A stretch of 32,200 bases of DNA, taken from the NCBI GenBank assembly GCA_029212835.1, contig JARGPE010000012.1, positions 1 to 32,200 of the forward strand, in the 5' to 3' direction. The position numbers and the translations under genes were made by a program. A model generated the notes under the pieces. The model was not told the DNA's origin, did no database searches, and was given only the letters and a program-made list of their open reading frames with translations. This document shows, one piece after another, positions 3,169 to 17,975 of the stretch; position 1 is the stretch's first letter, and each line of letters starts with the position of its first letter. Origin of the DNA: Alphaproteobacteria bacterium (GTDB lineage: Bacteria > Pseudomonadota > Alphaproteobacteria > UBA8366 > Aestuariispiraceae).

Positions 3169-3684
3169 TTATCCCTGACGCAGGACAGGCTTTGCCGTAG
3201 GAGTCCATTTTCGCAAAATTCGACCATCTGACGTTTTGACCTGAGATTTAGGCTCTGGCTTTTGCGTGAAGTGTTGCGCGATCTGTTCAAAGGGAATCAC
3301 GGTCCCGACTTCCTTGCGATAGGCGCGCCGGTATACGTCATTATAGGTCATCATACGATTGAGGTAATCCGCAGAATGGTGGCCATATTTGCTCCAAATC
3401 CGATTCAGAAAATTATCGGCCACAGGCACCATCTTGCGCATCATGATCTGTGGGCGGCTGTCTTCAAAGGCATGAAAAACAGTCGGTTCAGTCGGGCCGG
3501 TTTCCTCAGCAACAAAGGTGGCAGGCATCAACATACGGCCATGATTTTCCGCCGCATACAGGCCTTGGGCAATCCACAACAATCGTTGCAATTTCTGCGC
3601 GGGCATATGCTTGTCGTCGCGGCGCGATTGGTCAAAAAACCACAGCGCCACGTCCAAGGCAGAGGGAACAACCGGTACTGTCAT
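3169..3684 (-). CDS. Panacea/SocA-like (DUF4065) domain protein
   Basis: 171 aa; 'LDVALWFFDQSRRDDKHMPAQKLQRLLWIAQGLYAAENHGRMLMPATFVAEETGPTEPTVF...FLNRIWSKYGHHSADYLNRMM' matches the general layout of DUF4065/Panacea proteins (KLQ-LL--AQ--Y, A-E-GP--P-V, FL---W--YG--SA--L). Confidence 0.65.
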   Translation of the reverse strand: MTVPVVPSALDVALWFFDQSRRDDKHMPAQKLQRLLWIAQGLYAAENHGRMLMPATFVAEETGPTEPTVFHAFEDSRPQIMMRKMVPVADNFLNRIWSKYGHHSADYLNRMMTYNDVYRRAYRKEVGTVIPFEQIAQHFTQKPEPKSQVKTSDGRILRKWTPTAKPVLRQG

Positions 3685-3801: not shown

Positions 3802-4566
3802 ATGGAAATGACTGGCGAGTATCGAATTCCGGCGGCGCGTGAAACCGTATGGGAAGCCCTGAACGATCCAGAAGTTCTGAAAGCCTGCATTGCGGGCTGC
3901 CAATCCCTGGATCGTACCGATGAAGGAGGCTTTGAAGCCACGGTGAAGGCCAAGGTTGGCCCTGTCAGCGCGACCTTCAAAGGGGCGGTTCGACTGGAAA
4001 ATGTTAACGCGCCCGAAAGCTATACCATTGTTGGCGAAGGCAAGGGCGGCGCGGCCGGCTTTGCCAAGGGCGGTGCAGATGTGAAGCTCGTTGAAGACGG
4101 CAGTGACACAATCCTAACCTATATCGTGAATGCTCAGGTCGGCGGCAAATTAGCGCAGATCGGTGCTCGGTTGGTCGATTCGACAGCCAAGAAATATGCA
4201 ACAGACTTTTTTGATAAGTTCGTTGTCATCGCGAAAGAACGTGATTCCGGTGCAACAGATGCGACGGTTACCCCATCGGACGCGGCACCGGAAGAGCCAA
4301 CTCAGGCGGCAGCGTCTGGGACTGCGGAAATGCACCAACCAGAAGAAGAACAACCACCCCGACCTGCCCCACAAAAGCCTGAAACCGTGGATAGGGACGC
4401 CATCAAGGCCGATGCAAAACGGGCCGCTGTAGACGCTGTTCACAAGCAAACGGCGAAGCGCTGGGGACTGACCCCAATGCAATGGATCATGATCCTGGTC
4501 TTGATCATGCTGGGCCTATCCTTGGTTTTCGGGAATGATGCACAAATGCCCGGCACCGGAAAATAA
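3802..4566 (+). CDS. coxG: CoxG-like SRPBCC protein with C-terminal membrane anchor
   Basis: 'MEMTGEYRIPAARETVWEALNDPEVLKACIAGCQSLDR...EATVKAKVGPVSATFKG' is typical of CoxG; Glu/Pro-rich linker and terminal hydrophobic helix 'MQWIMILVLIMLGLSLVFG'; directly upstream of coxS. Confidence 0.9.
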   Translation: MEMTGEYRIPAARETVWEALNDPEVLKACIAGCQSLDRTDEGGFEATVKAKVGPVSATFKGAVRLENVNAPESYTIVGEGKGGAAGFAKGGADVKLVEDGSDTILTYIVNAQVGGKLAQIGARLVDSTAKKYATDFFDKFVVIAKERDSGATDATVTPSDAAPEEPTQAAASGTAEMHQPEEEQPPRPAPQKPETVDRDAIKADAKRAAVDAVHKQTAKRWGLTPMQWIMILVLIMLGLSLVFGNDAQMPGTGK

Positions 4567-4729: not shown

Positions 4730-5218
4730 ATGCCATCCGTTTCAATGACGGTGAACGGGAAGCAAGTATCAGGCACTGTTGAGCCCCGGACTCTGCTCGT
4801 CCAATTCATCCGCGAAAATCTGCATCTGACAGGAACTCATGTCGGTTGTGACACCAGCCAATGTGGTGCCTGTGTGGTTCATGTAGATGGCGCCTCGGTC
4901 AAATCCTGTGCAATGCTGGCCATCGAAGCCGATGGCTCCACGGTCACCACAATTGAAGGTCTGGCGGGTGATGGAGATGTTCTTCATCCGATGCAGGAGG
5001 CTTTTCGCGACAATCATGGACTGCAATGTGGCTTCTGTACGCCAGGCATGGTGATGAGCGCGATTGATCTGGTAAACAACAATCCCGCGCCGTCTGAGCA
5101 TGAAATCAGGGACTGGCTGGAAGGCAATATCTGTCGCTGTACCGGCTATCATAACATCGTCAAATCAATCACCGCTGGTGCGGCCGCAATGAAAGGCCAA
5201 AAGGCTGCCGCAGAGTAG
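4730..5218 (+). CDS. coxS: CO-dehydrogenase-like (xanthine dehydrogenase family) small subunit, two [2Fe-2S] clusters
   Basis: '[20 protein letters not shown]...SC' and '[15 protein letters not shown]...[17 protein letters not shown]' cluster motifs. Confidence 0.95.
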
Positions 5219-5317: not shown

Positions 5318-7693
5318 ATGAGTGCAACTGGGATCGGCGCCTCTGTGAAGCGCAAAGAAGATTTCCGTTTTCTAACCGGACGCGGCAATTACACTGACGA
5401 TATCAACCAACCCAATCAGACATATGCCTATATCCTGCGCAGCCCCCATGCCCATGCGAAAATCAAGGGCATTGATACGGCCGCTGCAAAATCGGCCTCT
5501 GGCGTTGTTGCGGTCTTCACGGGCGAAGACATGCAGGTTGGCTCCATCCCCTGCGGATGGGGGGTCAACAATAAAGACGGCAGCCCAATGAATGAGCCGT
5601 TCCACCCTGCCCTGGCCCAGGGCAAGGTCCGCCATGTTGGCGATCAGGTCGCCGTCGTTATCGCTGAGACCTATTCCCAAGCAAAAGACGCAGCAGAATT
5701 AATCGAAGTTGATTATGAAGAGCTGCCTGCTGTCACCAATTCGGAAAAGGCCATCGCGCCCGGTGCACCGCTGGTCCATGACGACGCCGCCCCCAACAAC
5801 ATGTGCTATGACTGGGAATTGGGGGACGAGGCGGAAGTGGATGCGGAATTTAAAAATGCCGCCCATGTCGTATCGATTGATCTGACCAATAACCGACTTG
5901 TCCCGAACGCCATGGAGCCCCGCGCCGCCATTGGTGATTACAACAAAGGGACTGGTGAATATACACTCTACACCACCAGCCAGAACCCTCATGTCATTCG
6001 GCTGTTAATGGGCGCTTTCGTGCTGCAATTGCCGGAGCATAAACTGCGCGTTGTTGCCCCTGACGTGGGCGGTGGGTTCGGGTCCAAAATTTATCACTAT
6101 GCCGAGGAAGCGATTGTCACCTGGGCAGCCGGAAAGGTGCGCCGCCCGATCAAATGGACGGCAGAACGCTCCGAAAGTTTCCTATCAGATGCCCATGGGC
6201 GGGATCACATCTCCCATGCCGATCTGGCGTTGGACAAGGACGGGAAGTTCCTGGGCCTTAAGGTCTATACAAAGGCAAATATGGGGGCTTATCTCTCCAC
6301 CTTCTCCACCTGTGTGCCTACATATCTGTATGCCACATTATTGGCGGGCGTATATACAACGCCGAAAATCTACGTCAATGTGAAGGCGATTTTCACCAAT
6401 ACCGTGCCGGTCGATGCCTATCGTGGCGCGGGCCGTCCAGAGGCAACTTACCTGCTGGAGCGTCTGGTGACCAAGGCCGCCAAGCAATTGGGCATGGATC
6501 AGGTCGCCATTCGTCAGAAAAATTTCATTCCCGCAGACGCCTTCCCCTATCAGACCCCGGTCGCCCTGCAATATGACAGTGGTAACTATGAGGCGACGCT
6601 GAAAAAGGCGATGGAACTGTCGAAATGGGATGAATTCCCGCAACGGAAAGCAGAGGCTGCCAAACGCGGTAAGCTGCGTGGTATTGGGATTTCGACCTAT
6701 CTGGAAGCCTGTGGTATCGCCCCATCTGCGGTTGTTGGTTCATTGGGTGCACGGGCAGGTCTGTTCGAATCTGCCAATGTGCGAGTCCACCCGACTGGCT
6801 CTGTCTCGATCTATACAGGGTCGCACAGCCATGGTCAGGGACACGAGACGACATTTGCACAATTGGTCTCAGAAACCCTCGGTATCCCCTTGGAAAATAT
6901 CAATATTGAGCATGGGGATACGAATCGGATCGCCTTCGGGATGGGCACCTATGGGTCCCGCTCTCTCGCCGTAGGCGGTGAGGCAATCATGAAGGCGCTT
7001 GGCAAAGTGGTCGACAAGGCCAGTAAGATTGCGGCGCACTTAATGGAAGCTTCCGTCGAGGATGTTGAGTTCAAGGATGGCAAATTTACAGTGGCCGGCA
7101 CGGATAAAGAAGTTGATTTCGGAACCGTGGCGCTGACCGCCTATGTTCCGCACAACTATCCGCACGAAACGCTGGAGCCGGGTCTGGAAGAAAACGCGTT
7201 CTACGATCCAATGAATTTCACTTATCCGGGCGGATGCCATATCTGCGAGGTAGAGATCGATCCGGATACCGGAACGACCCAGATTGTCGGCATGACTGCC
7301 GTCGATGACGTTGGACGCGTTATCAATCCAATGATCGTTGAAGGTCAGATCCATGGCGGTCTGGCTCAAGGCATTGGGCAGGCCTTGCTGGAATCCTGTG
7401 AATATGACGACAGCGGTCAGCTTACGTCCGGGTCTTACATGGACTATTGCATGCCCCGGGCGGATAATCTGCCTAACTTCATGGCAACAACGGAATCGAC
7501 CCTATGCGCCCACAATTCCCTGGGCGTGAAGGGCTGTGGTGAAGTTGGTGCGATCGGCTCTCCACCCGCGGTAATCAATGCCGTTTTGGATGCATTGCAT
7601 GAATTGGGGGTTGAAGATATCTCCATGCCTGCAACACCGCAGAAAATATGGCAGGCAATTCAGGCCGCCTCAATGCCTGCCGCGGCCGAATAA
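5318..7693 (+). CDS. coxL: Form II CO-dehydrogenase-like molybdopterin large subunit
   Basis: 791 aa; '[18 protein letters not shown]', '[11 protein letters not shown]', active-site-loop motif 'AYRGAGR' (form II; not AYxCSFR), '[21 protein letters not shown]'. Confidence 0.93.
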
Positions 7694-7722
7694 GCCCGGC
7701 GCGGATAGAAAGGAAGACAAAC

Positions 7723-8511
7723 ATGTACGAATTTTCCTATCACAAACCTAGCTCTGTCGCCGATGCGGCAAAGGCCATGGGCTCGGCGGATGACCCAAAA
7801 ATCTTGGCAGGCGGGCAAACCCTGCTGCCAACAATGAAGCAACGCCTCGCCTCCCCCAGTGATGTCGTCTCCTTGCGAGGATGCCGTGATTTGGTTGGGA
7901 TCTCCTCAGATGGATCAACCCTGACCATCGGGGCAATGACGACCCATGCCGCGGTTGCGGCCTCTGGGGATGTCCAAAAGGCAATCCCGGCTTTGGCCGC
8001 GCTGGCGGGCAATATCGGTGACGCCCAAGTGCGCAACCGAGGCACGATCGGTGGATCACTGGCCAATAATGATCCAGCTGCGGATTATCCCTCGGCGGCT
8101 TTGGCTCTGGGGGCAACCATTGTCACAACCAAGCGGGAATTATCAGCCGATAATTTCTTCACGGGCATGTTTGAAACCGCCTTGGAAGAAGATGAAATCA
8201 TTACCTCCATCCGCTTCCCGGTGCCGCAGGCCGCCGCCTATGCAAAGTTTGACAATCCTGCCTCTCGCTATGCTCTGGTCGGTGTATTCTTTGCAAAGAC
8301 TTCGGACGGTCCCCGCGTAGCCGTGACGGGCGCGTCCCAAGGCGGTGTATTCCGAGCAAAAGATATTGAGGAACAGATTGCCGCCGGGAAAACCCCGGAC
8401 AGCAGCGGTATCGCCGAAAACAGCCTGAACGCCGATATCCACGCCACTGCTGCCTATCGCAAGCATCTGATCGGTGTTATGGCCAAACGTGCTGTTGCGG
8501 CGGCTGGTTGA
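7723..8511 (+). CDS. coxM: CO-dehydrogenase-like medium (FAD) subunit
   Basis: 'MYEFSYHKPSSVADAA...KILAGGQTLLPTMKQRLASPSDVV', 'RNRGTIGGSLANNDPAADYPSAALALGATI'. Start set to ATG 7723 rather than 7648, which overlaps coxL. Confidence 0.92.
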   Translation: MYEFSYHKPSSVADAAKAMGSADDPKILAGGQTLLPTMKQRLASPSDVVSLRGCRDLVGISSDGSTLTIGAMTTHAAVAASGDVQKAIPALAALAGNIGDAQVRNRGTIGGSLANNDPAADYPSAALALGATIVTTKRELSADNFFTGMFETALEEDEIITSIRFPVPQAAAYAKFDNPASRYALVGVFFAKTSDGPRVAVTGASQGGVFRAKDIEEQIAAGKTPDSSGIAENSLNADIHATAAYRKHLIGVMAKRAVAAAG

Positions 8512-8538
8512 TCCGATCACAAGATCATTTAAGAAGCG

Positions 8539-8579
8539 GCCCCGTTGCGTATATACGCGGCGGGGCTCTTTCTTTTTCC
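8539..8579 (+). terminator. Rho-independent terminator after coxM
   Basis: GCCCCGTTGCGTA-TA-TACGCGGCGGGGC: long stem with two G.U wobbles (loop realistically TATA), followed by TCTTTCTTTTTCC. Confidence 0.85.
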
Positions 8580-8629: not shown

Positions 8630-8818
8630 ATGCGGCCGTATCCGTTTCCCCTTCTCTGCCTGATAACATGGCTGATTGGCAGTGCCTCTGCAGTGGCGCA
8701 GTCCGTTGATGAGCGGGAAACGTTGTGCCGAGCCACAGATACAGCTGCAGAACAGCGACTGAGCGCCTGTGGCAGCCTGATAGAAGGCGCGGCGTACACC
8801 ACCGCGGAATTGCGCTGA
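8630..8818 (+). pseudogene. N-terminal fragment (signal peptide) of TPR protein; frame ends at TGA 8816-8818
   Basis: 'MRPYPFPLLCLITWLIGSASAVAQSVDERETLCRATDTAAEQRLSACGSLIEGAAYTTAELR*'; the C..LI pattern is typical of the N-terminus of periplasmic TPR proteins whose repeats continue in another frame immediately downstream. Confidence 0.55.
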
Positions 8819-9438
8819 TGCAGACCGGTGCCCTGGATGCCGCGATGACAGATTTGGATACCGCGTTAGATTATGACCCCTATCTCTATAAGGCCTATAT
8901 CCAAAGAGGCATGGTTCTGTTGTTTAAGAACGATCCCTATCGCGCGATCCTGGATTTCAGTGTCGCTGCGGGGTTGGAGCCACTGATCGCAGAACCCTAT
9001 GCCCAGCGTGCCCTGGCCTTATTTGCGAATAAGGAATATGCAGCAGCCATCAAAGATTTGGAAACCGCGCTTAACTATGATCCGACCAATGTATCCGCAC
9101 GGCGTTCGCTCGCCTGGATGCTGTCGGTCAGCCCCGATCGCAGTCTCAGAGATGGCACGCGTGCGCTTGGCCTTGTGGATCAACAAGGCGCGCAGTCAAA
9201 TCAAGTCGTCTATGCAGCCGTCCAGGCGGAATCCGGCGATATCGATGGGGCTATGAGCACCTACCGCACAGTGGCTGGTCAGGATCCACGCGCCGGACAA
9301 AAGTTTCAAAGCTACCTGAATGCCGCTGGTTATTATAAGGGGCCGCTTGATGGGTCCTTTTCGTCTCTGGTGGAAGAGGCGCTGAAACAATGTCTTCTGG
9401 CGGGCTGCCGCATTGGCGGACCGATCATTCGTCCATGA
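8818..9438 (+). CDS. TPR repeat protein (main part; out of frame with 8630-8818)
   Basis: 'RGIALMQTGALDAAMTDLDTALDYDPYLYKAYIQRGMVLLFKNDPYRAILDFSVAAGLEPLIAEPYAQRALALFANKEYAAAIKDLETALNYDP' shows successive TPR units; ATG 8818 overlaps upstream TGA (TGATG). Confidence 0.75.
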   Translation: MQTGALDAAMTDLDTALDYDPYLYKAYIQRGMVLLFKNDPYRAILDFSVAAGLEPLIAEPYAQRALALFANKEYAAAIKDLETALNYDPTNVSARRSLAWMLSVSPDRSLRDGTRALGLVDQQGAQSNQVVYAAVQAESGDIDGAMSTYRTVAGQDPRAGQKFQSYLNAAGYYKGPLDGSFSSLVEEALKQCLLAGCRIGGPIIRP

Positions 9439-12401
9439 CAGAAAAACCCGACCCAGAACTCAAAATCGGCGATCGGCTGATAGAGGAAGAAACGCCAGAG
9501 GGTCGAGGTTTTCGCCGCTGGTTGTGGCTTGGCCTACGCTCCGCCCTGATTCTTCTTATAATCCTTGGCGTATTGTTGGGGCTGGGGTGGTTGTTTCGGT
9601 TGCCCATGGCAAACTCTGTCCTGCCAATCCTGCTGGAAAGCGTTTTAGATCAGCCTGTTACATTGAAGGTCACAAAGATTGAGTCAACTGAAGTTAAGAT
9701 TGAGAACTTTGCGATTCAGAATGGCCCCAGCATCGCCCATATTGATCTGGTGCCGAATCTATCGATTGCGGATGGCACCTATCTGGACTCTCTGACTCTC
9801 GATGGTATTCGTGCGCAAATGCATGTGACAGAGGCTGGAGGCACGGAGATAAATGGACTGGATACGCTATTTGTGTCCGACACATCTGATAACACAGAAC
9901 TCACCCTCCCCCAGATCCCCATAAAGAATATCAAGGTTTCAGACATCCAGATTGAGGCAACGACTCCGATCGGCCCACAATTGTTGACCGGTAATCTGGC
10001 AATCTCCCTGGACGCCGCGCCAAGCCTGATGCCCATGACATTAACGGCTCATCTGAATGCCCCAGACAGCCAAAGCGCCATTCTGGCGACAATCACAGCC
10101 GGTTCCCGAGGATTGGTGGCAAATGCGACTGTGGACCTATCCCTCGCTCACTGGCTACCTTTCCTGCCAGGCATTGAGGTGGCAACAGGTCGCACAACGG
10201 CAACACTGGATATGACCAGCGGTCCTTTAAACACAGACCAGTTTGAGGAAATCGGTTTGCCCGGTCTGATGGCGGCCCTGACAGGATCAGCAGAAATCGC
10301 CTGGAGCGGCGCAAGTGTGAAGCCTTACGATTGGTCAACTTTGACACCAGATGATGGCATCGGCCTGATCACGATTGAGGGGGGGCGTCTTCAGCTTACC
10401 CTACCCACCGACATTGAAGTAGAAAGCGGGCCAATTCCAGACAATCTGCGCCACACCCTACCTGATGCAGTGAATGCCTATGCGGATGGCAACCCGCAAC
10501 TAACCCTATCCCAGACAGATGACCGGCCAGCCCTTATCCTGCGCCCCGATGCTGGCGGAGGGTGGCGCACGGAATTCGCGTTGGATGCCGGTATCGCCCT
10601 GGGACCGCTTTCAACCCGCGTCACTCCGGAAAGCCTGACTCTGTCAGATCAGTTCGCCCCGCGCAGGATGACTCTGTCATCTGCCAGTATTGATATGGTG
10701 CGGGGCTTGGATCTTCCCCGAGAAATCACTGGACATGTCGATATTGGATCCCTCGCGGTCGATCTTCCACTTCTGATATCCTCCCCCTCTGCACATCCAG
10801 CCTTTGATATCCCCTATCAGGCTGAAGTAATGGTATATGGCGATATCTTTCCCCCGATCTGGGCCCGCTCCTCTGCATTGAAATCCGCAGGCACTGCACA
10901 TCTTAGACAGAGTTTGGAGGGCTTGGACTTAACCGTAGATCGTGGCAGTCAATTGAAGCTGGACGGGCTGACAGGGACCGGTGATGTGAGACTGTCCCCA
11001 CGATTGCGTCTGGATGTTGCGGGGCGTGATCCATTGCGGGTTGGATTGGATTTTGCTGACCCCATCAACAGTCTTTCAGTTGAAGGGGCCTTTCGCCTGG
11101 GTGCGCTGAGCCTCGCAATCCCCAGTGCAGACCCGCCCCTATCCCTTGAACTGGACCGACAGCCCGTCTCCCTGCGCTATCAAAAAGGAGCCGCGACCTT
11201 AGCCATGGGACCTGTGGATGTGACAGTGCCGGAATTGGATGCATCCCTGAGTCGCGCCGTGCTGCATATCGACTATGGTGGTAAATCAGGCACAGCCACC
11301 CTATCCGCTGATGGAATAAAGATCGCAGGTAAACCCCTATTGCCCGGCACGCTGACAGCCAGCATGGCGATGAATGAATTGTCGGACGGAACCTTAACCG
11401 TTGATGGGCCTATTTCTCTGGCAGAAGGACGCGTTACGGCCAGCCTATCTGCGTCCCACACGCCCGCCGGTATCAGTCACATTACACTGAAAGCAGCACC
11501 CATTCAGTTTGGCCCGGAAAATCTGGCCCTGGGCGATGTTGTACCTGCGGCTACTTTGAATGCAGATCAGAAACTGCCCTTGGTAACCGGCCAGATCGAC
11601 GCCGAGCTGGATATGACGCTGACACAAGCCGGACAATCCGGCGATTTAACCATCGCATTGGATAATGTCGGCGTTATGGATGCGGAAATCGGGCCAAAAT
11701 CCATTAATGGAACCGTGCTGTTTGATATGTCCTCTCCCGGCGCAACCCAGGGAATTCAAAAACTGACAGGTATCCTGTCCGCACCCGGCCTGCCCGATAT
11801 GCCAACTGCGATCACATTTTCCATCGACCCATCTCGTGTTGTGCAGATCAAGGAAGCAACACTCGACCTCTTTGATGGGGAGATTGCCTTAATCGACGCA
11901 CAGTTAGACCCGGCAGAGGTCAGCCTGAACGGCACTTTACGCCTGCGCCGGGTCGACCTGCAGCAGGCATTGCAACATTTGGAAATTGAGGGGGTCGAGG
12001 GAACCGGCAAGATTTCCGGGCTGATGCCAGTTCGTGTGACCCAGGGGGATATTATCCTGAATGATGGCAGCCTGGCAGCCGAGGGCGGTGGTGTTCTGAA
12101 GATCGACAATGAAACCGTCAATCAAGCCTTGTCCAGTGATCAGCAGGAAGTGCAACTGCTGTCCGAGACCTTAAAAGATTTCCATTATGACGGCCTGACT
12201 GCCACCGTGGCATTACCCGCCGGGAAGAACGGCCATATCGGATTATCTCTCAGCGGACGAAATCCGGCAGTAATGGATGGCTATCCCTTCCAGATCAATG
12301 TCAATTTAGAAAGCGACTTCAGGAACTTATTCCAGATACTTCTGGCATTCATGGAAGCTTATGGTTCGGTTTTAAACTCGGCTAATTTATCGTCGCCCTG
12401 A
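9435..12401 (+). CDS. ydbH: YdbH family protein (AsmA/TAM-like intermembrane phospholipid transport family)
   Basis: About 988 aa with one N-terminal TM helix ('LRSALILLIILGVLLGLGWLF') then a long beta-rich region; C-terminal 'GTGKISGLMPVRVTQGDIILNDGSLAAEGGGVLKID...LKDFHYDGLTATV' as in YdbH; followed by YnbE and YdbL homologues. ATG overlaps TPR stop (ATGA). Confidence 0.85.
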   Translation: MTEKPDPELKIGDRLIEEETPEGRGFRRWLWLGLRSALILLIILGVLLGLGWLFRLPMANSVLPILLESVLDQPVTLKVTKIESTEVKIENFAIQNGPSIAHIDLVPNLSIADGTYLDSLTLDGIRAQMHVTEAGGTEINGLDTLFVSDTSDNTELTLPQIPIKNIKVSDIQIEATTPIGPQLLTGNLAISLDAAPSLMPMTLTAHLNAPDSQSAILATITAGSRGLVANATVDLSLAHWLPFLPGIEVATGRTTATLDMTSGPLNTDQFEEIGLPGLMAALTGSAEIAWSGASVKPYDWSTLTPDDGIGLITIEGGRLQLTLPTDIEVESGPIPDNLRHTLPDAVNAYADGNPQLTLSQTDDRPALILRPDAGGGWRTEFALDAGIALGPLSTRVTPESLTLSDQFAPRRMTLSSASIDMVRGLDLPREITGHVDIGSLAVDLPLLISSPSAHPAFDIPYQAEVMVYGDIFPPIWARSSALKSAGTAHLRQSLEGLDLTVDRGSQLKLDGLTGTGDVRLSPRLRLDVAGRDPLRVGLDFADPINSLSVEGAFRLGALSLAIPSADPPLSLELDRQPVSLRYQKGAATLAMGPVDVTVPELDASLSRAVLHIDYGGKSGTATLSADGIKIAGKPLLPGTLTASMAMNELSDGTLTVDGPISLAEGRVTASLSASHTPAGISHITLKAAPIQFGPENLALGDVVPAATLNADQKLPLVTGQIDAELDMTLTQAGQSGDLTIALDNVGVMDAEIGPKSINGTVLFDMSSPGATQGIQKLTGILSAPGLPDMPTAITFSIDPSRVVQIKEATLDLFDGEIALIDAQLDPAEVSLNGTLRLRRVDLQQALQHLEIEGVEGTGKISGLMPVRVTQGDIILNDGSLAAEGGGVLKIDNETVNQALSSDQQEVQLLSETLKDFHYDGLTATVALPAGKNGHIGLSLSGRNPAVMDGYPFQINVNLESDFRNLFQILLAFMEAYGSVLNSANLSSP

Positions 12402-12487
12402 TGTTGCCCTTTTCTATTGCGATAAATCAGTTGTAGAGTCCCTGTAACGACTTTGACCGCATACGATCGGATGGACACCCCGTGTTA

Positions 12488-12682
12488 ATGGCCCCCAGAA
12501 AACTTGGCCTTGCTGCTGCTCTGCTGAGCCTTTCGCTCGCATCGGCCTGCACGCCGACCGTTCAGTTAGAGGCCCCGCGGGAGCCGATCACAATCAATCT
12601 CAACGTCAAGTTGGACGCAGATGTCCGCTTACGGCTGATTCAAGAGGCGCAAGAAGATGTTAAAGCAAATCCGATATTCTAA
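12488..12682 (+). CDS. ynbE: YnbE family lipoprotein
   Basis: Signal peptide ending in 'LASAC' lipobox then 'TPTVQLEAPREPITINLNVKLDADVRLRL', the YnbE signature. Confidence 0.85.
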   Translation: MAPRKLGLAAALLSLSLASACTPTVQLEAPREPITINLNVKLDADVRLRLIQEAQEDVKANPIF

Positions 12683-13052
12683 CACCCTGTCTGCGCAAGA
12701 TTTTTCGCGTCGCCGCGTAATGATTGCTTTTGCTGCGCTGTTGTTTGCGGCTCCGATGCTTTTTGGAAACCTGCCTGGGGCACAAGCCGCAGATTCGCTG
12801 GATGGCCCTCGATCTGCGGGTACAGTCGGTGAACGTTATGACGGTTATGCCGTGGTTCGGGATGGCGCTGAGGGAGATGTCCAGCAGTTGGTCGCTTCCA
12901 TCAATGCAAAGCGCAAAGAATTCTATCAATCTAAGGCGACCGAACAGGGCGTCGATATCACCGCTATTCAAGCGATTTATGCCAAGGCCATCTATGACAA
13001 GGCTCCCTCCGGCTGGTGGTTCCTGACCGAAAGTGGTTGGGTACAGAAATAG
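12657..13052 (+). CDS. ydbL: YdbL family (DUF1318) protein
   Basis: 'SAGTVGERYDGYAVVRDG...QQLVASINAKRKEFYQSKATEQGVDITAIQAIYAKAIYDKAPSGWWFLTESGWVQK' matches YdbL layout. Start could be ATG 12657 (26-nt overlap with ynbE) or ATG 12720. Confidence 0.85.
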   Translation: MLKQIRYSNTLSAQDFSRRRVMIAFAALLFAAPMLFGNLPGAQAADSLDGPRSAGTVGERYDGYAVVRDGAEGDVQQLVASINAKRKEFYQSKATEQGVDITAIQAIYAKAIYDKAPSGWWFLTESGWVQK

Positions 13053-13144: not shown

Positions 13145-14074
13145 ATGTCTGGCACCCTTCCCCAATCCGTTGATGAAACACAGAAACTTCTATCCGATGG
13201 TCGTTATGTCGCGGATCGGTCGCTTTCAACGGCACTTTTTCTGTCGCTCAAGCTGCACCGCCCTTTATTCCTAGAGGGGGAAGCAGGAACCGGAAAAACG
13301 GAAATTGCCAAAGTCCTGTCCGAAACACTGGATCGCCCATTGATTCGTCTGCAATGCTACGAGGGGCTGGATATTTCATCCGCTGTTTACGAGTGGAACT
13401 ATGCCCGCCAGATGATGGAAATCCGCCTTTCTGAAGCGTCTGGTGGGGGTGATCGTGCTGCGCTGGAAGCCGATCTGTTTTCTGAACGTTTCCTCATAAA
13501 ACGACCGATCCTACAGGCTCTGGAATCTGCCAAGAAAGGCAAAGCACCGGTCCTGTTGATCGATGAGTTGGACCGCACGGATGAACCCTTTGAGGCCTTT
13601 CTGCTGGAAGTCCTCTCAGACTTTCAGGTCACGGTTCCGGAATTTGGCACTGTGAAGGCAGAAGAGCCACCTTTGGTCGTTTTGACCTCGAACCGAACCC
13701 GTGAAATCCATGACGCGATAAAGCGGCGCTGTTTCTATTACTGGGTCGATTATCCTGATGCTGAACGGGAATTGGCTATTCTGGCGATCAAAGCCCCCGA
13801 GGCACCAGAAGCCCTGAGCCGTCAAATCGTCGCCTTCGTTCAGAAAATCCGCACCATGGACTTATTCAAGTTGCCGGGTGTTGCGGAAACCATTGATTGG
13901 GCTCAAGCACTGACACAATTGGATCGGCTAGCACTGGACCCCGATACGATTAACGATACGCTGGGGGCCTTGCTGAAATATCAAGATGACATCGCACGTC
14001 TGCGTGGCTCGGAAGCGGCGCGCATTCTGGAAGAAGCAAAAGTTGAACTCGCCCAGGCGGGCTATGCTGCGTGA
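13145..14074 (+). CDS. coxD: MoxR-like AAA+ ATPase (CoxD-like)
   Basis: Walker A 'LEGEAGTGKTEIAK', Walker B 'PVLLIDELDRTDEPFEAFLLEVLSDFQVTVPE', 'VVLTSNRTREIHDAIKRRCFYYWVDYPD'. Confidence 0.92.
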   Translation: MSGTLPQSVDETQKLLSDGRYVADRSLSTALFLSLKLHRPLFLEGEAGTGKTEIAKVLSETLDRPLIRLQCYEGLDISSAVYEWNYARQMMEIRLSEASGGGDRAALEADLFSERFLIKRPILQALESAKKGKAPVLLIDELDRTDEPFEAFLLEVLSDFQVTVPEFGTVKAEEPPLVVLTSNRTREIHDAIKRRCFYYWVDYPDAERELAILAIKAPEAPEALSRQIVAFVQKIRTMDLFKLPGVAETIDWAQALTQLDRLALDPDTINDTLGALLKYQDDIARLRGSEAARILEEAKVELAQAGYAA

Positions 14075-15345
14075 CCAAAAAGGTCGTGACCCCAGAGGCA
14101 TCTCAACCAGCTGCCAATTTGGTTGTCGGCCAGGCTGATGGCGGTCGTTTGGCCGAAAACATCATGTATTTTGGGCGCGTCCTGCGTGCGGCGGGCCTGC
14201 CCGTTGGCACTGGCAAAGTACTGGATGCGATTGAAGCCGTTAGTGCGGTGGGTGTCGACAGCCGTAAGGACTTTTACTGGACCCTGCACGCAATATTCGT
14301 AAATCGCCGCGATCAAAGGGAAATATTTGATCAGGCCTTCCACTTTTTCTGGAAGAATCCCAATCTCTTAGAAAAGGCGATGGCGATGCTGTTGCCCGCC
14401 ATGAAGGGGGAACAGCAGCCAGAAAAGGCCGAAATGTCGACCCGACTGGCGGAGGCCCTGACTAAGGAACGCCCCCCTGCGCCGGAGAATGAGGCCGACG
14501 AGGAAGAAGAGGAAGAATTCGACATCGACGCATCCCTCACCTTCTCCCGCAAAGAGGTTCTGACGGAAAAAGACTTTGAGAAAATGAGCACGGCAGAGCT
14601 GGAGGCTGCCCGCAAGGCGATTCAGAGGATGCATCTCGCCTTTAATCCTATTCCAACACGGCGTTTCTATCCTGACCCCAAGGGACGCCGCACCGATCTT
14701 CGCGCCACCCTGCGCCGTGCCGCACGATCCGGTGGGGATCTGTCGCAACTGAGCATGCGCAAGCGCCGCCGTCGCGTGCCGCCATTGGTGATCCTGTGTG
14801 ATATTTCAGGCTCAATGGATCGTTATGCCCGCATGATGCTGCATTTCATACATGCCTTGACCAATGACCGGGACCGGGTCTCCAGCTTCCTATTTGGAAC
14901 ACGCCTGACCAACATCACGCGCACTATGCGGCGCAAAGACCCCGATGTCGCCATTGATCAATGCGCCGCCCAGGTGGAAGACTGGGCTGGTGGCACCCGC
15001 ATCGGCATCACCTTGTCAGAATTTAACCGCACATGGTCTCGCCGGGTGATGACCCAGGGGCCAATTGTCCTGCTGATCACAGATGGCCTGGACCGTGATG
15101 GCGCAAAGGGGCTGGAGGCAGAGATGGAGCGCCTGCATAAGTCTTGTCGCCAGTTGATCTGGCTGAATCCGCTGTTGCGATGGGATGGTTATTCTCCAAA
15201 GGCCAGTGGAGCAAAGGCGATGATCCGTAATGTCGACAGCTTCCGCCCTATCCACAATCTGGACTCCCTCTCAAAACTGGCAGATGCTCTGAGCACAGAA
15301 ACCCCGGTGCAAAATTTGTCGCGCTGGAAGGAGATGGCAGCATGA
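14071..15345 (+). CDS. coxE: VWA domain-containing protein (CoxE-like)
   Basis: MIDAS-type motif 'LVILCDISGSMDRYARMMLHFIHAL'; GTG start overlaps coxD stop (GTGA). Confidence 0.92.
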   Translation: MTKKVVTPEASQPAANLVVGQADGGRLAENIMYFGRVLRAAGLPVGTGKVLDAIEAVSAVGVDSRKDFYWTLHAIFVNRRDQREIFDQAFHFFWKNPNLLEKAMAMLLPAMKGEQQPEKAEMSTRLAEALTKERPPAPENEADEEEEEEFDIDASLTFSRKEVLTEKDFEKMSTAELEAARKAIQRMHLAFNPIPTRRFYPDPKGRRTDLRATLRRAARSGGDLSQLSMRKRRRRVPPLVILCDISGSMDRYARMMLHFIHALTNDRDRVSSFLFGTRLTNITRTMRRKDPDVAIDQCAAQVEDWAGGTRIGITLSEFNRTWSRRVMTQGPIVLLITDGLDRDGAKGLEAEMERLHKSCRQLIWLNPLLRWDGYSPKASGAKAMIRNVDSFRPIHNLDSLSKLADALSTETPVQNLSRWKEMAA

Positions 15346-15665
15346 GTGACCTCATTGATCCCTTAACCCAAGCGAAAGAATGGCAGGATCAAGGGCTAAA
15401 AGTCGCTGTGGCAACGGTTGTTGAGACTTGGGGGTCATCCCCTCGCCCCGCTGGCAGTCAATTGGTAGTCAATGAAGAGGCTGGCTTCGAAGGCTCCGTT
15501 TCTGGTGGCTGTATCGAAGGGGCTGTCGTGACCGAGGCGCTGGATATCATGGAAAGTGGCACGCCCAAGCTAATGGAATTTGGGGTGTCCGATGCCATGG
15601 CCTGGGAAGTGGGCTTGGCCTGTGGCGGCACGGTGCGGGTTTTCGTCGAAAAGCTGGAGGCGTAA
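15342..15665 (+). CDS. coxF: XdhC/CoxF family protein, N-terminal-domain type
   Basis: 'VAVATVVETWGSSPRPAGSQLVVNEEAGFEGSVSGGCIEGAVVTEAL...FGVSDAMAWEVGLACGGTVRVFVEKL'; ATGA overlap with coxE. Confidence 0.9.
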   Translation: MSDLIDPLTQAKEWQDQGLKVAVATVVETWGSSPRPAGSQLVVNEEAGFEGSVSGGCIEGAVVTEALDIMESGTPKLMEFGVSDAMAWEVGLACGGTVRVFVEKLEA

Positions 15666-15672
15666 CGACGCC

Positions 15673-16365
15673 ATGAAGCGGTCTCTTCTGGAACAATTGC
15701 AATCCGCCCGCGATGCTGTCCTGCCCACCGTGTTGATCACGCGGCTGGAGGATGGGGCGCAGGCCCTGATCGTGGAGGACACGGTCGTCACAGGGGACCT
15801 GGCCCCCGACACCGCGCTAAAAGATGCCGCCAAAGACTGTCTGCGTCAGGACAAGTCCCGAATGGTGGATGGCTGTTTTTTGCAAATATTTAATCCGCCT
15901 TTACGCCTGATTGTAATTGGCGCAGTCCATATCGCCCAAGCTCTGGTGCCTATGGCAACCCTTGCTGGCTATGCCGCCACAGTCATTGATCCGCGGGGGG
16001 CCTGGGCCAGTGAGGCACGCTTTCCTGGCGTTGCGGTGCTGCAGGATTGGCCAGAAGAAGTGATGGTTGCCCTGAAGCCAGACCGCCGCACCGCGATAGT
16101 GGCGCTGACCCATGACCCGAAGCTGGATGATCCGGCCCTGGCCGTCGCCTTGAAATCCGATGCTTTCTATATCGGCGCCTTGGGCAGCAAAAAGACCGCT
16201 GCAGCGCGTGCCGAGCGCCTGAAGGCTGGCGGCAGTGATCCCGACGCTATCGCAGGAATTGACGGACCGATTGGATTGAATATTGGCGCGGTCTCTCCAG
16301 CAGAGATCGCTGTCTCTATTCTGGCAAAAATGACCCTGGCTCTGCGGGGACCGAAGGGGAGCTGA
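15673..16365 (+). CDS. XdhC family protein, C-terminal Rossmann-domain type
   Basis: 'LRLIVIGAVHIAQALVPMATLAGYAATVIDPRGAWASEARFPG', 'IVALTHDPKLDDPAL', 'YIGALGSKKTAAARAERL', 'IGLNIGAVSPAEIAVSILAKM'. Confidence 0.9.
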   Translation: MKRSLLEQLQSARDAVLPTVLITRLEDGAQALIVEDTVVTGDLAPDTALKDAAKDCLRQDKSRMVDGCFLQIFNPPLRLIVIGAVHIAQALVPMATLAGYAATVIDPRGAWASEARFPGVAVLQDWPEEVMVALKPDRRTAIVALTHDPKLDDPALAVALKSDAFYIGALGSKKTAAARAERLKAGGSDPDAIAGIDGPIGLNIGAVSPAEIAVSILAKMTLALRGPKGS

Positions 16366-17975
16366 TGGAATTCGGTCCTATTTCCGCTGATACCGCCACA
16401 GGCGCGATCCTGGCGCATTCCATTCGCTTGTCGGATCGGGCGCTTAAAAAAGGCCATTGGCTGACAGAAGAGGATGTGGAGGCGCTGAAAGCCGCCGGTA
16501 TCACCTCTGTCACGGTCTGTCGCCTGGCTCCCGATGATGTCCCTGAAAACGATGCTGCAGATACCCTGGCCATGGCCGCGACAGGAGATGGATTTAGCCG
16601 CAGCGCTGCCTTTACCGGTCGTGTGAACCTGATCGCGCAACAGGATGGCATTCTGGTTTATGATCCTGTTCTTCTGGACGCATTGAACCGTGTGGATGAG
16701 GGGATCACCTTTGCCGCCCTGCCACCTTATTCCAGGGTGGCTGCACGGCAGATGGTGGCGACAGCCAAGATCATTCCCTTTGGTGTGCCAAAACAAATGC
16801 TTCAGGCAGCCTGCCCCAAATCCCCGCTGTTTCGGATCGCCGCATTCCAATCACTGTCTTTGGGATTGATCCAAACCATCCTTCCTGGCGTGAAGCCCAG
16901 TGTTTTAGACAAGACCGATCAGATTATGAACGCGCGCGCGGCCAGCCTTGGCGCGGTTCAAATTACGCCCGTCCGCTGCAAACATTCAGAAGATGACCTA
17001 ACCTTGGCGCTGGCAGCGATGACCGCGGAAAAAGTTGCGATCATCACCATTGTCGGGGCATCTGCTATTGTAGATCGCCGCGATGTAATCCCGGCCGCAA
17101 TCTCTCAATGCGGTGGAACCGTAGAGCATTTTGGTATGCCTGTTGATCCGGGGAACCTGCTGTTATTGGGGAGAATTGGCGATATTCCAGTGATCGGTGC
17201 CCCAGGCTGTGTGCGGTCACCCAAGCCAAATGGCTATGATTGGGTACTGGAACGACTGGTTGCGGGCCTGCCTGTCGATGGACCCGGCATTATGGCAATG
17301 GGATCTGGCGGGTTTCTGAAAGAGATACCCGTGCGGCCCCTGCCCCGTGCCGAAGCCGCGCCCAAACAGGCAACAAGCCATGCACCCTGCATAATCGGTC
17401 TGATGCTGGCAGCCGGGCAATCCCGCCGTATGGGCAAGGCGAATAAGTTGCTGGAAAATCTGGATGGGAAGCCGATGCTGCGCCACTCTCTGGAGATACT
17501 CCTGGCAGCACAGATCGACGGTGTCACTGTTGTGACAGGGCACGAGGCGGAACGAGTCCGTCAAGCGATCTCAGACCTGCCTGTCTCCTTCACCGACAGT
17601 CCCGACTATGCCAGTGGTTTGGCGGAAACCGTGAAACGTGGCATTGCCGCCCTGCCTGAATCAGCAGACGGGGTCCTTATTTGCCTGGGCGATATGCCCC
17701 GCGTGAAAACCGAAACGTTAAACCGCCTGATCGCGGCCTTCGATCCCACAGAGGGACGCACGATTTGTGTTCCTGTCCATCTTGGCAAGCGTGGCAATCC
17801 CGTCCTGTTCGGCAGACGCTTCTTTGCCGAAATCATGGACCTTTCAGGCGATACCGGGGCAAAATCTCTGATCGGGGCCTATGAGGAACAAGTCGCGGAA
17901 ATCGTCGTCGATGACCCAGGCGTGCTGTTGGATCTGGATACGCCAGACGCTCTTAGAATGGCGCAAAATCGTTAG
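16365..17975 (+). CDS. Fusion: MoeA/MPT-binding-like domain + MocA/MobA-like NTP transferase
   Basis: N-terminal molybdopterin-binding-like region ('IVGASAIVDRRDVIPAAISQCGGTVEHFGMPVDPGNLLLLGRIGDIPVIGAPGCVRSPKPNGYDWVLERL') plus C-terminal 'IIGLMLAAGQSRRMGKANKLLENLDGKPMLRHSLEILL...CLGDMPRVKTETLNRL'. TGATG overlap with upstream gene. Confidence 0.88.
   Translation: MEFGPISADTATGAILAHSIRLSDRALKKGHWLTEEDVEALKAAGITSVTVCRLAPDDVPENDAADTLAMAATGDGFSRSAAFTGRVNLIAQQDGILVYDPVLLDALNRVDEGITFAALPPYSRVAARQMVATAKIIPFGVPKQMLQAACPKSPLFRIAAFQSLSLGLIQTILPGVKPSVLDKTDQIMNARAASLGAVQITPVRCKHSEDDLTLALAAMTAEKVAIITIVGASAIVDRRDVIPAAISQCGGTVEHFGMPVDPGNLLLLGRIGDIPVIGAPGCVRSPKPNGYDWVLERLVAGLPVDGPGIMAMGSGGFLKEIPVRPLPRAEAAPKQATSHAPCIIGLMLAAGQSRRMGKANKLLENLDGKPMLRHSLEILLAAQIDGVTVVTGHEAERVRQAISDLPVSFTDSPDYASGLAETVKRGIAALPESADGVLICLGDMPRVKTETLNRLIAAFDPTEGRTICVPVHLGKRGNPVLFGRRFFAEIMDLSGDTGAKSLIGAYEEQVAEIVVDDPGVLLDLDTPDALRMAQNR

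Follow-up and report, generated by a model that had tools for sequence, protein, structure and literature searches.

Why should genes for an envelope lipid bridge stand between the structural and the maturation genes of a molybdenum hydroxylase? The partners and regulation of AsmA-like bridges such as YdbH are little known outside Escherichia coli. The question is raised by a 32,200-nucleotide stretch of an alphaproteobacterial draft genome (the window), in which coxGSLM, then ydbH-ynbE-ydbL (the trio), then coxDEF-xdhC-mocA follow one another on the forward strand. This order and strand, proposed in a preliminary description of the DNA, are borne out by matches to Pfam-type profiles (Table 1). 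That description had offered either a chance insertion or a link between envelope lipid transport and the hydroxylase as the reason for the arrangement.

Table 1. Features of the window, and genes that occupy the coxM-coxD interval in related loci
Feature	Coordinates	Strand	Evidence or remark
SocA/Panacea-like protein, divergent from coxG	3169..3684	-	PF13274 5.4e-6
coxG: SRPBCC domain (residues 5-139) and C-terminal membrane anchor (about 221-249)	3802..4566	+	PF06240 5.2e-36; hydropathy segment from 221
coxS: small subunit, two [2Fe-2S]	4730..5218	+	PF01799 1.2e-34, PF00111
coxL: Mo-binding large subunit	5318..7693	+	PF20256 1.1e-94, PF02738 7.9e-77
coxM: FAD subunit	7648..8511	+	PF00941 3.3e-47; start is first ATG of the ORF, true one may be later
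Intrinsic-terminator-like hairpin (13 pairs and T-run) closing the coxGSLM unit	8538..8567	+	
TPR and peptidoglycan-binding-like secreted protein, broken	8630..9438	+	31-nt deletion, stop at 8816-8818, frame change
ydbH: 988 aa, inner-membrane anchor (TM about 28-60), long periplasmic beta-groove	9435..12401	+	PF11739 1.7e-52
ynbE: 64-aa lipoprotein, lipobox LASA-C21, conserved EPITINLNVK strand	12488..12682	+	PF13617 2e-10
ydbL: DUF1318 protein, N-terminal hydrophobic segment	12657..13052	+	PF07027 1.5e-21
coxD: MoxR-type AAA+ ATPase	13145..14074	+	NF047784-like and AAA_5
coxE: VWA protein, 4-nt overlap with coxD	14071..15345	+	PF05762 (VWA_CoxE) 5.3e-66
coxF/coxI-like protein, XdhC N-terminal domain	15342..15665	+	PF02625 2.1e-24
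XdhC Rossmann-domain (C-domain) protein	15580..16365	+	PF13478 1.1e-38; likely start about 15673
MocA-like Mo-cofactor cytidylyltransferase with N-terminal extension	16365..17975	+	TIGR03310 4.5e-45, residues 346-529
Varied genes in the coxM-coxD interval of related loci	L032:10094-12127, L060:10242-12011, L040:11739-13775, L062:12433-13638		cNMP-binding, TPR-glycosyltransferase, AlaDH/PNT

CoxL carries AYRGAGR, the form II motif, at residue 367, and with its S, L and M subunits the locus encodes a form II CoxL-type molybdenum hydroxylase. Enzymes with a form II CoxL occur widely, and no substrate is known to be established for them. The motif (A/S)YRCS(F/L)R of form I, the proven CO dehydrogenase (PMC13240472), is absent from the CoxL active site. 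CO dehydrogenases are the closest solved structures of CoxL by sequence; because AYRGAGR is the form II motif, CO oxidation is not implied, and we rejected it as an unsupported role for the enzyme. CoxG serves as the membrane anchor of its enzyme (PMC4240915), and PMC13240472, citing Kropp 2025, reports it as a quinone-binding protein; the membrane anchor previously suggested for CoxG was recovered here as a hydropathy segment from residue 221. Among the maturation genes, CoxD and CoxE form a MoxR-VWA pair, an AAA+ ATPase adjoining a VWA_CoxE protein, and the TIGR03310 match of the MocA-like protein falls short of that model's curated cut-off. The SocA/Panacea-like gene upstream is kept at the same place in genomes of families f1, f2 and f3, and may encode a cox regulator.

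Next, we looked into the trio itself. Profile PF11739 covers YdbH nearly whole (profile positions 3 to 876 of 893), and an AlphaFold2 model built with 34 homologues (mean pLDDT of 84.7, pTM of 0.58) showed N-terminal helices, an unbroken series of beta strands extending for about 900 residues, and a helix at the C terminus. The protein combines an N-terminal inner-membrane helix (hydropathy, residues 28 to 60) with a continuous periplasmic beta-groove. Foldseek comparison of the model with solved structures gave weak, low-TM matches, the best being the lipid carriers ApoB100, the bridge-like LPD-3 complex and LptD. The protein scores weakly against the NCBI equivalog model for E. coli YdbH, and YdbH identity is about 20% even among alphaproteobacterial homologues. 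The start of ydbH is probably at 9435 and not at 9390, since the later start overlaps the TPR stop as ATGA, an overlap kept in a congener. The lipobox of YnbE reads ...SLASAC with Cys as residue 21, and ynbE and ydbL share 26 nt where one ends and the other begins. In E. coli, the one species for which phospholipid transport by this system is known, YdbH acts redundantly with TamB and YhdP in outer-membrane lipid homeostasis (PMC8593681), and an interaction of YdbH with YnbE, a lipoprotein of the outer membrane, is described (PMC12977461). By analogy, window-type YdbH-YnbE-YdbL orthologues would transport lipid.

The same draft genome holds a second, distinct YdbH-YnbE-YdbL set on a 4.2-kb contig (L001, G000 contig C10), whose YdbH belongs to a different clade, near f32. 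Because congeners carry one set only, this contig may be contamination. A first scan of the genome contigs with whole-length YdbH as query found nothing.

The TPR gene upstream of ydbH had been described as a member of the cassette and as a single ORF from 8630. The 8630 frame ends at 8816-8818; a different frame, which runs to 9438, encodes the TPR domains. Alignment with two congeners, in which the TPR proteins are intact (286 to 342 residues), showed that 31 nt are missing from the window's copy, which is therefore a pseudogene or an assembly error. At this place the gene is limited to the window's genus; being lineage-specific as well as broken, it was dropped from the conserved cassette.

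We surveyed gene neighborhoods, as the preliminary description had proposed, and found that the adjacency of ydbH and cox genes recurs across about ten families. In 44 genomes of the window's order, ydbH adjoins coxM, coxD or coxE in 20 of the 23 that bear YdbH, across three families (f1, f2 and f3). Among 289 well-assembled genomes of Alphaproteobacteria, YdbH was present in 84 and a strong CoxE in 138, and co-carriers were matched by hand. At least about 50 genomes carry both, and in at least 15 of these no more than about 5 kb separates ydbH from coxE. Chance would account for about 0.2 such cases, given genomes of about 4.5 Mb with one or two CoxE genes each, so the adjacency far exceeds random expectation. 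The adjacent cases span at least eight families (f1, f29, f33, f35, f59, f86, f102 and f130), to which f71 adds a coxGSLM-ydbH arrangement. Judged from gene order, the adjacency is thus conserved over about ten family-level groups of Alphaproteobacteria, well beyond the genus, and is not confined to this strain or its immediate relatives. Among 259 sampled Pseudomonadota genomes, none outside Alphaproteobacteria showed ydbH next to cox genes. In these neighborhood calls, labels from the CoxF query were ignored, its profile having drifted onto CoxE.

A survey of named taxa with a YdbL profile built from a 9-row alignment gave 40 loci. The trio has cox neighbors in about 14 of them, including those of Pacificispira spongiicola, Marivibrio halodurans, Hwanghaeella grinnelliae and Pelagibius litoralis, and in Kiloniella, Zavarzinia and Enhydrobacter the trio had no flanking cox genes. 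Unlinked YdbH loci showed no shared neighbor as widespread as the cox genes. A literature search, with most subscription papers outside its reach, found no paper joining YdbH with cox genes.

Three loci call for separate mention. In G072 (f33), short fragments of coxD and coxE lie between ydbH and xdhC (L090:8021-8912), which suggests decay of the maturation genes. In G109, a large molybdenum hydroxylase subunit directly follows the trio (L070:6344-12446); this locus, having no coxDEF, represents a different ydbH-molybdoenzyme pairing and was counted apart. The record CP051228.1, titled Mesoflavibacter sp. isolate ih5, bears this alphaproteobacterial locus (L113), and its organism label looks wrong.

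These surveys separate the two halves of the original alternative. Because the adjacency spans at least ten family-level groups whose YdbH proteins are only about 20% identical, the idea that chance recently inserted the trio in this strain is refuted; the conserved association stands. The window makes up a single complete contig of a 3.9-Mb draft in 323 contigs, and its TPR gene is broken, which might point to a strain-level accident or an assembly artefact; closed genomes and named isolates show the same order, however, and refute such an origin, which we consider exceedingly improbable. Both surveys, of the order and of the class, reject a strain-only insertion.

We then asked to which part of the cox locus the trio belongs. 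The strong terminator reported after coxM is there, as a hairpin with a T-run; the trio's embedding in one cox unit was not upheld, because this terminator precedes it. GC-rich hairpins follow coxM in many genomes, some of them without the trio (a strict terminator scan missed several that were evident by eye or in a looser scan, the window's own among them). Linked genomes have the order coxG-S-L-M, ydbH-ynbE-ydbL, coxD-E-F-xdhC-mocA; from ydbL to coxD the distance is in most cases 22 to 190 nt, with only a few weak terminator matches, and a 4-nt overlap of coxD and coxE is usual. In Hwanghaeella (f1), f35, f86 and one f29 genome the locus is split: the trio remains with coxDEF-xdhC-mocA, and an orthologous CoxL, 67 to 78% identical to the window's, is encoded elsewhere in the genome. 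The trio is therefore, in gene order, the head of the maturation unit and not an insert in one operon; with the coxM hairpin so common and the locus splitting there, we rejected a single continuous cox operon containing it. From this layout we infer that the trio and coxDEF are co-transcribed, with the trio leading in transcription too.

The explanation that we favor, and hold to be somewhat probable, is that an ordinary YdbH-YnbE-YdbL lipid bridge is co-expressed with CoxDEF in an old arrangement kept by shared regulation. YdbH would be anchored in the inner membrane with its beta-groove in the periplasm, the outer-membrane lipoprotein YnbE would dock on its C-terminal end, and YdbL would serve as a small accessory protein. 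The trio would supply the first genes of a transcription unit running into coxD-coxE-coxF-xdhC-mocA, and coxGSLM would form a separate upstream unit, usually ending at the terminator hairpin. Selection would then act on the shared expression of two inner-membrane-linked functions, presumably not on a physical complex.

The linkage is not obligate. Many trios are found apart from cox genes or in genomes that have none, and coxM stands directly before coxD in members of the same families (G006, G010, G038 and G019). In other relatives the coxM-coxD gap holds genes for a cNMP-binding or an AlaDH/PNT protein, an inverted TPR-glycosyltransferase gene or a TPR gene (Table 1). Since the interval receives such varied genes, it is a permissive insertion site, and part of the trio pattern could therefore be neutral. 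Two genomes in which we found no ydbH retain its companions directly before coxD, ynbE-ydbL in G017 (L065:5742-6418) and ydbL alone in G011 (L062:11562-12014), which is unexpected for an obligate bridge. The weak equivalog score of the window's YdbH likewise counts against the favored explanation. In the YdbH tree (75 rows in the full set, under a model simpler than a mixture model), linked proteins lie mostly in one region with unlinked ones nested among them, as expected from one old linkage with later losses. An old insertion past the coxM terminator, inherited or lost with no functional tie, would account for the unrelated genes at the site, the direct coxM-coxD junctions, the loose co-occurrence and the nesting. 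It accounts poorly for the trio being the sole inserted gene set that recurs across families, for its staying with coxDEF in four lineages whose locus separated, and for the want of an equally widespread neighbor at unlinked YdbH loci; we regard purely neutral hitchhiking as unlikely.

The trees also bear on a closer tie. A single clade of all linked YdbH rows was rejected (AU test, P value = 3e-5). The f3 YdbH proteins were placed with those of f86, f102 and f71, and one YdbH clade of f1, f2 and f3 was strongly rejected (P value = 4e-55). The CoxD-CoxE tree, in contrast, keeps f1 to f3 together (support of 94), with a P value of 0.026 for the YdbH-like grouping. This discordance could mean that the trio was replaced at the site or joined to it more than once; with YdbH identities near 20% and uneven composition, it is a lead only. 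Repeated joining would suit a direct partnership, in which one pool of lipid or quinone in the inner membrane would be shared by the trio and the Cox system: CoxG would draw membrane quinone for the hydroxylase, CoxD-CoxE would work at the membrane, and the bridge would supply or remove lipids or the hydrophobic substrate or product of the enzyme. Such a partnership is also consistent with conservation of the adjacency across large divergence, with the membrane anchor and the quinone binding ascribed to CoxG (PMC4240915, PMC13240472), and with RavA-ViaA, another MoxR-VWA pair, whose action at the inner membrane extends to a respiratory enzyme (PMC9489729, PMC10585395). Against it, each of the two, cox locus and trio, commonly occurs without the other, the trio tracks coxDEF and not coxGSLM, and the tree discordance may be an artefact or hidden paralogy. 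We think a direct partnership improbable.

That lipid transport is functionally tied to the hydroxylase is thus unproven, because the trio and cox each occur alone, the trio goes with coxDEF, and a terminator usually parts it from coxGSLM. The narrower proposal that the cox-linked trio is a specialized lipid or quinone conduit, operating at the inner membrane together with CoxD-CoxE or the hydroxylase that CoxG tethers, strikes us as decidedly doubtful; if true, it would make a molybdoenzyme and an intermembrane lipid bridge one physiological system. Under the favored reading of shared regulation, an ancient operon joining form II CoxL maturation to an AsmA-like bridge would give both fields a testable lead in named isolates.

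Each part of the locus resembles a known system. The ydbH-ynbE-ydbL locus of E. coli, of the AsmA-like superfamily to which TamB and YhdP also belong, has the same three families in identical order, and the window's trio likewise combines a membrane helix, a long beta-groove, a small outer-membrane lipoprotein and a small secreted DUF1318 protein. It differs in being strongly diverged, matching the equivalog model only weakly, and in heading a cox maturation operon. We know of no ydbH link for RavA-ViaA. That system shares the two-protein architecture of CoxD-CoxE, a MoxR AAA+ protein with a VWA partner, and its action at the inner membrane is documented (PMC9489729); it belongs, however, to another subfamily, and its operon has no molybdenum enzyme. 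The coxBCMSLDEFGHIK cluster of Oligotropha carboxidovorans, which encodes a form I CO dehydrogenase, shares with the window the enzyme subunits, the AAA+ protein CoxD, the VWA protein CoxE, CoxF and CoxG (PMC4240915), whereas the window has the form II motif AYRGAGR, another gene order, additional xdhC and mocA genes, and the ydbH trio before coxD.
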